Shown here: positions 1 through 28,339 of the stretch, piece by piece | Position numbering within the stretch: the stretch's first letter is position 1 | Layout of the letters: every line of letters starts with the position of its first letter | Virus record (IMG/VR): IMGVR_UViG_3300046804_003778 | Location: 1-48,009 of that record | Length of the DNA stretch: 48,009 nucleotides | Direction: 5' to 3' (one strand) | Source: a virus | Made by a program: the position numbers and the translations under genes | The notes under the pieces: model-generated | What the model saw: the letters and a program-made list of their open reading frames with translations, nothing else | Told to the model about the DNA's origin: nothing | Database searches by the model: none

Positions 1-126
1 TTTTGTAAAATATACAGGATCATCCTTACACTTCAACCACTCTTCAATTTCTTTCGGAGTAAATTGAATTTGCACATTCGCCGCTTTAAGATTGGGCGAA
101 CCTTTATAAACTTGATTTTGTGACAT
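1..126 (-). CDS. 17: Terminase large subunit gp17, N-terminal fragment (cut by window edge)
   Basis: The 42 codons from the ATG at 126 run off the left edge. The peptide starts MSQNQVYKGSPNLKAANVQI and continues with FTPKEIEEWLKCKDDPVYF. This lines up with an internal stretch of T4 gp17 (YMGLPNLKRANI...EEWKKCRDDIVYF) just before its ATPase domain, so this protein starts later than T4 gp17, as cyanophage gp17 proteins do. By family knowledge, gp17 is the ATP-driven packaging motor and headful nuclease. The ATPase and nuclease motifs lie outside the window and cannot be checked. The start is 3 nt after the stop of the HNH gene upstream; only a weak, distant GGAA is visible as ribosome binding site, so translation may be coupled. 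Confidence 0.9.
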   Translation of the reverse strand, partial: MSQNQVYKGSPNLKAANVQIQFTPKEIEEWLKCKDDPVYFTK

Positions 127-129
127 AAA

Positions 130-576
130 TTAGCAATTCCACTTTGTAAGATACTGGTATAGTTTGTAAGCATATTCACTGCTATCATTCATGTTACCTA
201 AAGCAAGATTACATTTATGGCAGAGAAGTTGTCTAACTTCACCAGTAGAATGATTATGATCTACTACTGGTCTTTCATGATATTTATTAGAACCATCAAT
301 TAAAGATACATCACAAATGGCACATTTACATGATTGTTCTGCTAATAAGATATCATACCTTTCCAAGGTAATTCCATATTTTGATGGTAAGTTGTATTTT
401 CTTACATGCTTTTTAGCACAACTTCTACAGGAATAATGTAATCCACTTTTCTGTGATTTATTTTTGTTATATTCTGATGGTAATTTCCACTCACCGCAAG
501 CAGAACACAACCATTCACCATTTTGGTTTGGTGATTTTCTTTTGTTTGGTTTGATAGATCCAAATTTAGCAGACAT
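130..576 (-). CDS. Endonuclease VII-like HNH (His-Me finger) protein, putative homing endonuclease
   Basis: 148 residues. The C-terminal half has the recombination endonuclease VII family layout: YGIT (67-70), a C85-x2-C88 pair, the catalytic-type VDHNHSTGEVR motif (105-115; DHNH at 106-109) and a second pair C119-x2-C122, a zinc-bound His-Me finger. The N-terminal half carries two more CxxC pairs (C24/C27, C50/C53), suggesting an extra zinc ribbon for DNA binding. T4 gp49 of this family resolves Holliday junctions, but stand-alone copies scattered in phage genomes often act as homing endonucleases. Its location between the terminase genes, in its own transcription unit, favours the mobile interpretation. 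The start is fixed by an in-frame TAA directly before the ATG (577-579). No Shine-Dalgarno is visible. A late promoter lies in the loop of an inverted repeat that covers the start codon. Confidence 0.85.
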   Translation of the reverse strand: MSAKFGSIKPNKRKSPNQNGEWLCSACGEWKLPSEYNKNKSQKSGLHYSCRSCAKKHVRKYNLPSKYGITLERYDILLAEQSCKCAICDVSLIDGSNKYHERPVVDHNHSTGEVRQLLCHKCNLALGNMNDSSEYAYKLYQYLTKWNC

Positions 577-627
577 TTATAAACAGCAATAATTTACAAC
601 TATTTATAAAAATTGCTGTTTATAAAT
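575..627. repeat. Perfect 16-bp inverted repeat around the endonuclease start codon
   Basis: Positions 575-590 (atttataaacagcaat) and 612-627 (attgctgtttataaat) are exact reverse complements separated by 21 nt. In RNA read on the minus strand they form a 16-bp stem. The downstream arm includes the first two bases of the ATG and the whole region where a ribosome would load. The loop contains the late promoter 601-608. A long transcript entering from the upstream gene would fold this stem and hide the start; a transcript from the internal promoter could not. No T-tract follows, so it does not look like a terminator. Confidence 0.8.
601..608 (-). promoter_or_regulatory. T4-type late promoter for the HNH endonuclease
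   Basis: On the minus strand this reads TATAAATA, the exact T4 late promoter octamer recognised by the gp55 sigma factor. It leaves 24 nt to the ATG at 576. It lies in the loop between the arms of the inverted repeat 575-590/612-627, so transcripts from it would lack the upstream arm. Confidence 0.75.
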
Positions 628-636
628 TGCTATTCA

Positions 637-6174: not shown

Positions 6175-6182
6175 TATTTATA
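6175..6182 (-). promoter_or_regulatory. T4-type late promoter for the gp13-gp16 operon
   Basis: Reads TATAAATA on the minus strand, with 24 nt to the gp13 ATG at 6150. Its first T is the last base of the T-tract of the terminator at 6182-6206, so termination of the upstream unit and initiation of the next are packed into about 30 nt. Confidence 0.8.
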
Positions 6183-6206
6183 AAAAAAGAGGGGGTTTCC
6201 CCCCTC
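6182..6206 (-). terminator. Rho-independent terminator after the 3391-residue gene
   Basis: Minus strand: GAGGGGG, loop GAAA, CCCCCTC, then TTTTTTT. The 7-bp stem is perfect (6189-6195 with 6200-6206) and the T-run is 6182-6188. The loop is a GNRA-type tetraloop, which makes the hairpin very stable. It lies 23 nt past the stop codon at 6230. Confidence 0.9.
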
Positions 6207-6229
6207 CCGTATTGAGTTTTTGGAAAAAA

Positions 6230-16683: not shown

Positions 16684-19600
16684 TTAAATTATTGTACCAA
16701 AGATTCTTGCTGGTGTGAACGATACTTTTTCATCCGTAGACTTACCAGAAGTATTGATTTGACCGCCTTCAAATATAGAAATTCTGCTGTAACTATTACG
16801 TTCACCACCGCTAATTCTGAAGAGATTTGTTTCAACAACGATGACAACTCTTTGTGTAATTGTTGCTGAGTTGAGTGCAAACAGAGATCCAGATCCAGTA
16901 AATGCTTGTCTGCGGAGCAAATCTGCATTTCCTGTATACGAGAATTGACCAGATGTTTCTGTTGTGTATACTGAATTGAAACTGGTTGTTGCTGTTCCAG
17001 AAATTCTGTAAAGCAGAGTTTCTGGTGGAATTGCTGTGAATGTAGATTGAGCAGAACCACCAAATTCCGTAATATTTCCATTTCCACTGTAGGAAGAAAT
17101 TGCTCTTTGATTTGCTGCACCTGAAATAAATTCTGATCCAGATCCATTGTAAGTTGGATATGTGCGAGATATTGATGCAGAATTGTAAACAAATTCCGTT
17201 CCTGTTCCTTGATAGGATTCTGTGCGAGTAGTTTTTGCAGAACCAGAAATCTTGAGATCTGTGATTTCTGAAACAGGTGAGAAGGAACTGGATTCTGTCG
17301 CACTCTTGAATGTGAAGAGTGAACCAGAAGCAACATAAATTTTTCTGGTGGATTCTGTATCTGCTCCAGAAATAAATTCTGATCCAGAAGATGTATAATT
17401 TCCTTTGGTAGTAGATTGTGTAGAAACACCAGTAATTCTGAACAGTTGAGTTTCTGGTGGTACTCTGACGGTTGAAGATTCTGCAGCACCACGAAGCAGA
17501 GAAACTTTTCCAGAACCATGATAAGTTGTTCTGATGAACGACTCTCCAACAGAACCATTAATTTTGAAGAGAACTGTAGATGTTGAAACATCTGTTTTGG
17601 ATTCTGTGGCACTCTTGAATGTGAAGAGTGAGCCAGAACCACTGTAAATAATAGTGTTGCTGGTTGCAGCGTTTGAAGAGATAAACTCTGTGCCAGAAGC
17701 AACATAAGATCCGCTGCGAATTGTAGTCGCAGTTCCAAAAATTCTGTAAAGTCTGGTTTCTGATGGAACTGTTCTCGTGGAAGATTCCGTGAGGCCATTG
17801 AATGTAAAGAGTGATCCAGAACCAGCAAAAGATGGAACAAATTTTACATCTGTTGCTGCACCAGAAATAAATTCTGTTCCGCCAACAGAAGAAGTATAAA
17901 CTGTATTGTAACTTGTTGTTGCAATTCCAGAAACTTTGAAGAGTTGAGTTTCTGTTGGTATAATTGCAGTAGTAGATTCTGCAGCACTCTTGAATGTGAA
18001 GAGTGAACCAGAACCAACAAAGTTGTTGGTGTGAAGAGTAGTAGCAACTCCAGAAACTTTGAAGAGTTGAATTTCTGAAGGAACTGAATATGCAAAGGAT
18101 TCTGCAATTCCTTTGGATGTAAACAGAGATCCTGTTCCTTGATATGCTTCGGAACGAGTAGTTGTTGCCTGACCAGAAGTTGTATAAAGTCTTGTTTCTG
18201 ATGGAAGAACTTTGGTAGAAGATTCGGTGAGGCTGTTGAATGTAAACAGAGAACCAGATCCAGCATAGTTTCCTTTGCTGAAGGATTCCTTGAGTTTTCC
18301 TGAAATAAATTCTACACCAGCGCCAATAAATGGTCTGGTTCTTGGCGTAGAAGCAACACCAGAATTGTAAATTACACCCGAACCTACATTCGTGTAAGTT
18401 GCATGATATTCTGTGGATGCAGATCCAGAAATATAAGATGTTCCAGAAACTGTAACATAACGAGGAGTTGGGCGATAGTATAAGTATTCTGGATAAATCC
18501 CTGTCTGTAATGTAATTGAACCAGTACCAATCCAAGAATCTGTAGCTCTTTCTTTGGCAATACCAGAAATTCTGAACAGACCAGTTGCAGGTGGATTGAC
18601 AGCACTGGATTCTGTGAGACTTCTGAATGTGAAGAGTGAACCAGAACCAGCATAATTTCCTTTGCTGAAGGATTCCTTGAGGTTTCCTGAAACAACAAAC
18701 AGTTGTGTTTCGGAACGAGCAATTCTGCTGTATGCATTGCTCTCCCCACCAATTCCGAACAGAGAACCAGAACCACGATATACTCTAGTTGCTTTTTGTG
18801 TAACTGTATTTGAAACTTTGAGAGTTCCAAATGGATATGCATAATCCAGATTCTGGATAGAACCGAAATCTGTTACTCCATATCCAGGTTCAGTTACAGT
18901 ACCATAATCTGATGACAGATCTGGAGCACTGGAAATAAATTGATAATCTGCTGTTCCGTATGGAACAATTGAAGATGTATTATAAGAATATGTCGCCTTT
19001 TCAATCTTCTTACCAATATTAAATACACTACCAGAACCAACATGTCCAAGTGAGAACAGGCACCTGGAAGTTCCTGAAATATTAATGGTATCATCGGATG
19101 TTGGTTTTGGTTTGGCAGAAAGATTGAATACAATGTATACTGATCCAGTAACATTGATAGTTCCAGATCCTCTCCAAGCAAGAATTGGAGCAAACGTTTC
19201 TACAGATCCGCCAGTGATATTAAATCCACCGTAAGGATATACAATATCAGTATCTGCTACTGATCCATAATTAAAGTATGCAGAAGATCCTTCTCCAATA
19301 TTTCCATAATTTTCAAATACTGTTGGACCTTCTCCGATATCCTCATAGTTAAGAGTATTGAATTCAATGATTGCAGAAGAATCATAAACATAGGTTCTGC
19401 TTTCAATCTTAGTTCCGATATCAAACAGAGATCCAGTTCCAGCATAACCAAATGTTCTGATATTGCTGGAAGCACCAGAAATAATAAAGAGTGAAGTTTC
19501 TGCTCTGAGAGACTTTGCTGTTGCTTGAGCACTTCCACCAATAGTAAATAGAGATCCTACGCCACTGTAAATTGCTGGTGCTGTTGTAGAAGCAGAACCA

Positions 19601-28304: not shown

Positions 28305-28339
28305 AAAAAAAGACCTTCCTTTTATTTATAAGGAAGGTC
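28305..28339 (-). terminator. Terminator with a late promoter inside its loop
   Basis: Minus strand: GACCTTCCTT, loop ATAAATAA, AAGGAAGGTC, then TTTTTTT. The 10-bp stem (28312-28321 with 28330-28339) is perfect and is followed by seven Ts (28305-28311). It stands 6 nt past the stop of the small coiled-coil gene at 28346. The loop and first stem base form TATAAATA (28323-28330). Confidence 0.9.
28323..28330 (-). promoter_or_regulatory. T4-type late promoter in the terminator loop
   Basis: Exact TATAAATA, 22 nt before the ATG at 28300. With the usual T4 late start site about 6 nt downstream, the transcript would begin inside the second stem arm, so the new RNA cannot refold the terminator. Confidence 0.75.

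Follow-up and report, generated by a model that had tools for sequence, protein, structure and literature searches.

A hairpin around a late promoter octamer as probable translational lock on a homing-type endonuclease gene of a T4-like cyanophage

A perfect hairpin that spans the start of a homing-type endonuclease gene and holds a late promoter octamer in its loop has been found in a fragment of a T4-like cyanophage (IMG/VR record IMGVR_UViG_3300046804_003778, positions 1 to 48,009; this whole stretch of 48,009 nucleotides is termed the window), and this hairpin probably functions as a translational lock on the endonuclease cassette. Read-through RNA from the upstream late operon would carry both arms of the hairpin, upon which the stem would bury the start codon and little enzyme would be made; late RNA polymerase with a gp55-type sigma factor would start at TATAAATA in the loop and produce a leader of approximately 19 nt, in which the start would be open because the 5' arm is lacking. 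The cassette would thereby be insulated from the transcription of the gene it has inserted behind, with its own rate of expression set by its own late promoter. If the lock works, the RNA start point switch of T4 type would no longer count as an oddity of coliphages, but as an adaptation that recurs among mobile endonucleases of a second large phage lineage and with several nuclease folds.

The endonuclease gene and the hairpin over its start

All called genes of the window reside on the minus strand, in the order gp13, gp14, gp15, gp16, two genes of which one encodes a structural protein, the DUF5661/DUF6321 gene, the nuclease gene and the start of gp17 along the direction of transcription (Table 1). 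The names gp13, gp14, gp15 and gp17 rest on gene order and on the matches found in related phages, and gp16 is the terminase small subunit (PF11053). The active site residues D106, H107, H109, R115 and N123 of the nuclease are accompanied by two CxxC pairs, and C85, C88, D106, H107, H109, R115, C119, C122 and N123 are invariant in an alignment of 12 relatives (alignment A1); the equivalent DHHRN signature has been described for the homing endonuclease F-CphI of phage S-PM2 (PMC6083498). The assignment to the endonuclease VII type in the initial annotation is borne out by domain match and DHHRN residues. Nearest solved relatives by PDB profile are the restriction enzyme Hpy99I (3fc3, E=3.4e-17) and T4 EndoVII (1e7d, E=9.8e-8), and judged by these profiles the nuclease is related to the Hpy99I/EndoVII fold. 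Beyond the zinc and active site core, the C-terminal part of T4 EndoVII has no counterpart in the nuclease, with the match spanning only residues 10-74 of the 157 of T4 EndoVII.

Table 1. Positions of the hairpin, the late octamers and the neighbouring genes in the window
Feature	Positions	Strand	Remarks
3' junction TGGAATTGCTAATTTATG	124..141	-	Equals the L008 empty site, where the DUF6321 gene abuts gp17
Endonuclease gene, 148 aa, EndoVII/DHHRN type	130..576	-	Pfam PF02945 E=1.3e-19; PHROG 2633 endonuclease VII
Hairpin 3' arm (RNA)	575..590	-	nt -14 to +2 of the nuclease gene
Hairpin loop, 21 nt	591..611	-	
Predicted start of late RNA	593..597	-	About 5-7 nt past the octamer, by analogy to T4 late promoters; RNA would lack the 5' arm
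Late promoter octamer TATAAATA	601..608	-	Within the loop
Hairpin 5' arm	612..627	-	In read-through RNA only; missing from relatives L003-L005
Upstream gene, DUF5661 plus C-terminal DUF6321, 257 aa	637..1410	-	3' end is the presumed homing target
Late octamer of the gp13-onward transcription unit	6175..6182	-	Unit would read through into the hairpin

The two arms of the inverted repeat are 100% complementary over 16 bp and 21 nt apart, whereby the 3' arm takes in the AT of the ATG (576-574) together with the preceding 14 nt. No other perfect inverted repeat with arms of at least 14 bp and a loop of at most 60 nt occurs in the 48-kb window, and a first-order Markov model with the composition of the window predicts about 0.01 perfect repeats of at least 16 bp per 48 kb. 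The hairpin RNA folds with -34.2 kcal/mol (z = -5.2 versus dinucleotide shuffles). As computed, 16.4 kcal/mol are needed to open the region from -12 to +3 in read-through RNA, where the stem lies over the translation start, versus 0.7-2.4 kcal/mol in loop-started RNA, in which the start region is open for every tested start 2-8 nt past the octamer; the octamer is consequently sited such that late RNA without the 5' arm would present an open start. The perfect repeat over leader and start codon and the exact octamer in its loop had both been claimed in the initial annotation and are confirmed here, and its proposal that read-through RNA sequesters the start, whereas RNA initiated around position 595 leaves it accessible, is supported by the computed energies and the comparison of relatives. 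The stem of the window contains no Shine-Dalgarno sequence, and nothing but the start codon and a leader rich in A/U is covered by it; just 6 of the 16 genes of the window possess a motif resembling a Shine-Dalgarno sequence, many genes having none. Searched against known RNA families, the hairpin gave only a meaningless sub-threshold microRNA match.

The late promoter motif published for cyanophage S-PM2 is NATAAATA (PMC2984593). With 7 copies in the window, the octamer is as frequent as expected by chance (mean 7.0), so that the octamer by itself was rejected as evidence and only position, strand and enclosure count. All 7 copies are located on the minus strand, the same as every called gene, and several are found just upstream of gene starts. 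The genes upstream of the hairpin, gp13 to gp16 and structural genes, lie behind a late octamer of their own. As this upstream transcription unit, which begins at a late octamer, appears itself to be late, a switch between early and late expression is not supported, and the early-versus-late reading of the lock has not been borne out by the gene order; early read-through may still occur. What the lock of the window would tell apart is read-through RNA and the gene's own transcript, and not early and late RNA.

Two additional arrangements of late octamers with terminators are present in the window. An intrinsic terminator (6187-6208) is positioned directly before the gp13 late octamer, which is the same order of terminator and late promoter as at F-CphI of S-PM2. 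Around position 28329 of the minus strand, a GC-containing 10-bp hairpin (GACCTTCCTT, loop ATAAATAA, AAGGAAGGTC), followed by T7 and ATAAATG, resembles a terminator with a late octamer in the loop before a gene of 110 aa, and is also present in the related contig G006 (score 8, at 2804).

Recurrence of the hairpin in cyanophages

Relatives of the window gene, five of which were retrieved from IMG/VR by protein search and further ones by alignment search, differ in how much of the arrangement they possess. The hairpin is retained in L001 and L002 (80% amino acid identity), apart from a single A.C mismatch and a single G.U pair. In L128 (73%), the stem measures 13 bp, and one G-C pair of the window has been exchanged for A-T through changes on both sides; here the stem stops just short of the ATG, and only a small gain is predicted (from 7.5 to 4.4 kcal/mol). 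In L129 (58%), an entirely different 13-bp stem, AAATTGATTAGCA/TGCTAATCAATTT around AATAAATA, directly precedes the ATG, with an opening cost of 14.4 kcal/mol in read-through versus 2.1-2.7 kcal/mol in loop-started RNA. L003, L004 and L005 have TATAAATA at the same place and no 5' arm, which indicates that conservation is stronger for the promoter than for the 5' arm, the latter being gained or lost.

A second EndoVII family (family B) was met through the neighbouring DUF6321 gene at L019, where another EndoVII gene follows an unrelated 17-bp perfect repeat (TTTCATACCTTTTCATT, loop TTTATAAATAATAGT, AATGAAAAGGTATGAAA); AAAAGG is contained in the stem of L019/L082. Among about 30 relatives of family B, many copies carry this hairpin with the ATG in or just past the stem and others are without the 5' arm. 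Exact matches to the family B hairpin pattern in IMG/VR occur on 14 contigs, which are EndoVII contigs (six of them were read through). The isolated phage S-SRM01 (NC_070963) has a 20-bp perfect repeat at gp207, with the octamer in the loop and a matching extra base in both arms. On a tree of 29 proteins, the presence of the hairpin requires 7 changes, at least 4 of which are forced by well-supported branches, and a lock that is ancestral and always kept was rejected on these grounds. Independent evolution, as brought up in the initial annotation, is likely for some of the hairpins in the light of the unrelated stems and of at least 4 forced gains or losses, which falls short of proof. The lock is dispensable, as L003-L005 and several family B members keep the octamer without the 5' arm. 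If the lock works, the many natural pairs with and without this arm (for example, the window versus L003 or S-SRM01 gp207 versus L090) would offer a direct test of what makes silencing on read-through RNA necessary for selfish endonucleases. A lock universal in homing endonucleases of cyanophages was equally rejected, since F-CphI of S-PM2, S-H34 and several family members are without it. On the contig of L028, a family B EndoVII copy near position 688 (L080) has ATA for ATG with the hairpin intact and is possibly a decaying copy.

Hairpins that enclose the octamer were surveyed in 1.31 Mb of cyanophage DNA (S-SRM01, S-H34, eight IMG/VR contigs and the window) with 435 ATAAATA sites, whereby the hairpin score was the length minus 3 per mismatch and the expectation was derived from dinucleotide shuffles of the flanks. 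A score of at least 12 was reached at 10 sites (9 distinct hairpins) versus 0.0 expected, and a score of at least 11 at 11 sites (10 distinct hairpins) versus 0.4 expected; a chance origin of these hairpins is unlikely. Nine of the 10 distinct hairpins with a score of at least 11 precede recognisable mobile endonuclease genes, namely the EndoVII genes of S-SRM01 (gp207), G005, the window, G004/L129 and G002 and, again in S-SRM01, gp066 (EndoVII/HNH-like), gp075 (GIY-YIG/NUMOD3-type), its relative gp152 and the homing endonuclease gp297; the remaining one precedes the unclassified candidate gp091 of S-SRM01, for which an endonuclease class could not be confirmed. As a control, 20 late-octamer genes that have no hairpin were drawn at random; they include one endonuclease. 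Compared to this 1/20, the hypergeometric probability is 4e-7 for 10/10 with gp091 counted as an endonuclease and 3e-5 for 6/6 after dropping the four EndoVII cases that led to those genomes; with gp091 taken as a non-endonuclease the enrichment is weaker but still there. Just below score 11, weaker versions are found at gp225 (EndoVII), gp048 (HNH), gp114 (NUMOD3) and gp320 (HNH, psbA intron), and scores of 9-10 also include genes other than endonucleases, several of which have a very tight loop reminiscent of terminators.

The loops of several S-SRM01 hairpins contain an intrinsic terminator in addition to the octamer, including those at a number of its HNH/GIY-YIG-type genes. The sequence of the arms differs from endonuclease gene to endonuclease gene and each arm pairs best with its own partner, which is partly by construction, as the arms were chosen as repeats. 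These observations might be extended to a more general, at present tentative, suggestion that seems to us slightly more doubtful than convincing: mobile endonuclease cassettes of cyanophages, of EndoVII/DHHRN, HNH and GIY-YIG types, may repeatedly and independently have acquired a portable insulation module, consisting of a late promoter, sometimes with a terminator, within a start-locking hairpin, that uncouples the parasite from whichever operon receives it, late ones included. As such insulation would work inside late operons too, the lock of such a module would read where an RNA began and not when it was made.

A hairpin with an octamer in the loop stands before endonuclease-type genes at 18022, 48504, 51315, 56027, 62478, 77631 and 192487 of NC_070963, mostly also with a terminator. 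Gene gp114 of the same phage (62515-63273), annotated as translation initiation factor 2, contains five NUMOD3 motifs and looks like a homing endonuclease of GIY-YIG type.

Insertion of the cassette at DUF6321 genes

The nuclease genes of both families are closely associated with one domain, as 34 of 35 are located 32-79 nt past a DUF6321-type C-terminus. Occupied as well as empty sites exist at this conserved gene: in comparison with phages that lack the nuclease gene, a check proposed in the initial annotation, the sites L006 and L008 are without nuclease, promoter and hairpin alike, and the DUF6321 stop codon adjoins gp17. The junction TGGAATTGCTAATTTATG, in the window composed of the 3' end of the nuclease gene and the start of gp17, is found with the same letters at the empty site L008. 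Downstream of the nuclease gene, an in-frame DUF6321 C-terminus follows over 27 codons in L090, L092 and L093, 13 codons in L086 and 10 codons in L097. The simplest reading of these in-frame remnants would be that they are footprints of insertion into DUF6321 genes and, equally in its simplest reading, the cassette would insert into the 3' part of the DUF6321 gene and bring along a replacement C-terminus. The footprints lend support, at the level of sequence, to the previous designation of the nuclease as homing-type, and they point to a likely homing target for an uncharacterised, widespread nuclease family. Perhaps they also explain the presence of the domain at the C-termini of unrelated phage proteins.

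Alternative explanations and known systems

Being located between two genes, the hairpin might act on RNA stability or processing, either by shielding the 3' ends of the upstream messages or as an RNase site that splits the two genes, rather than on translation of the endonuclease, and RNase E-like processing is known for Aeh1 mobE and for segB and segG of T4 (PMC2988022). This possibility is considered unlikely, since it leaves unexplained the octamer in the loop, the extension of the stem to the start codon in the window, in L129 and in gp207 and gp152 of S-SRM01, and the marking of endonuclease genes by the hairpin. A role in intrinsic termination of the upstream operon, for which the position after a stop codon and the terminators before other late promoters of the window (6187-6208) might speak, was rejected and has a negligible probability: the AT-rich stem is no GC stem, no U tract follows it and the hairpin is not listed by the terminator scan. 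Template switching in replication typically yields perfect palindromes, and the repeat as a neutral by-product of this process would agree with the 7 gains or losses on the tree and with a 5' arm that came or went recently, as concluded from its absence in L003-L005; template switching could also keep hairpins around late octamers perfect. As neutral palindromes should not cluster at endonuclease starts with an octamer in the loop (11 sites, 10 distinct, versus 0.4 expected) and neither the recurrence with different stems nor compensating changes are anticipated under neutrality, we regard this origin as improbable.

EndoVII enzymes cut cruciforms, and the inverted repeat could instead be an element at the level of DNA, either such a cruciform recognised by the EndoVII-type nuclease or a dimeric operator for autorepression. 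The palindrome encloses the octamer in a manner reminiscent of I-TevI, which binds an operator that overlaps its own late promoter (PMC2988022). However, stems are wholly different between the window and L129 and occur equally before HNH and GIY-YIG-type genes, and the window protein is devoid of the C-terminal region of T4 EndoVII. An I-TevI-type operator that resembles the homing site was rejected, as the similarity of the hairpin region to the 3' region of DUF6321, the putative target, is no greater than that of shuffled sequence. A function as DNA element therefore appears quite remote, and a lock on translation, as proposed above, remains the preferred reading of the hairpin.

A hairpin that blocks translation on read-through RNA with a late promoter inside has been described for I-TevI, I-TevII, I-TevIII, segB and the HNH endonuclease gene mobE of phage Aeh1 (PMC2988022). 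Blocking structures have equally been reported for e, soc and 49 of T4, with the T4-type cases hiding the Shine-Dalgarno sequence and/or the AUG (PMC3014915). The combination of lock logic with an EndoVII-type HNH enzyme, to which the initial annotation drew attention, is accordingly not new in kind and known for Aeh1 mobE and T4 gene 49 (PMC2988022, PMC3014915); as gene 49 encodes endonuclease VII and mobE an HNH enzyme, neither enzyme type is a first. With the group of I-TevI, I-TevII, I-TevIII, segB and mobE the window would share a mobile endonuclease, a stem that blocks the start in read-through RNA and a late RNA that starts inside. However, the T4 intron enzymes hide a Shine-Dalgarno sequence in early or middle RNA, whereas in the window the RNA from upstream appears to be late, the stem holds no Shine-Dalgarno sequence and a cyanobacterium serves as host. 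T4 gene 49 is alike in being an EndoVII-type gene, in the octamer enclosed by structure and in the start codon paired in the long RNA; its sequence places the start in a stem and ATAAATA in the 5' arm, with a computed opening cost of 12.3 versus about 3 kcal/mol without the 5' arm. It differs by this position of the octamer, by a bulged stem and as a resident resolvase, and the sequences are unrelated to those of the window.

Closer to the window, F-CphI of S-PM2, the one characterised relative, is a free-standing nuclease with EndoVII motif, encoded by a T4-like cyanophage and provided with a NATAAATA promoter of its own (PMC6083498), but has a terminator before the late octamer, no lock hairpin and a tie to psbA and not to DUF6321. 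Gene gp207 of S-SRM01 belongs to the same gene family, has the same place after DUF6321 and carries the octamer in the loop, but its stem sequence is unrelated to that of the window. No description of such hairpins in cyanophages was found in the literature searched, and one may exist elsewhere. What the present analysis adds is that such hairpins recur with unrelated stems in cyanophages, that the hairpin of the window is situated within a late operon and that S-SRM01 has variants with a nested terminator. In the latter phage, a hairpin at gp253 (162215-162245; AAGTATGGTTAGTAACCATACTT) is located between the late octamer and the ATG with the octamer outside, and resembles the seg43(25) case of the review.
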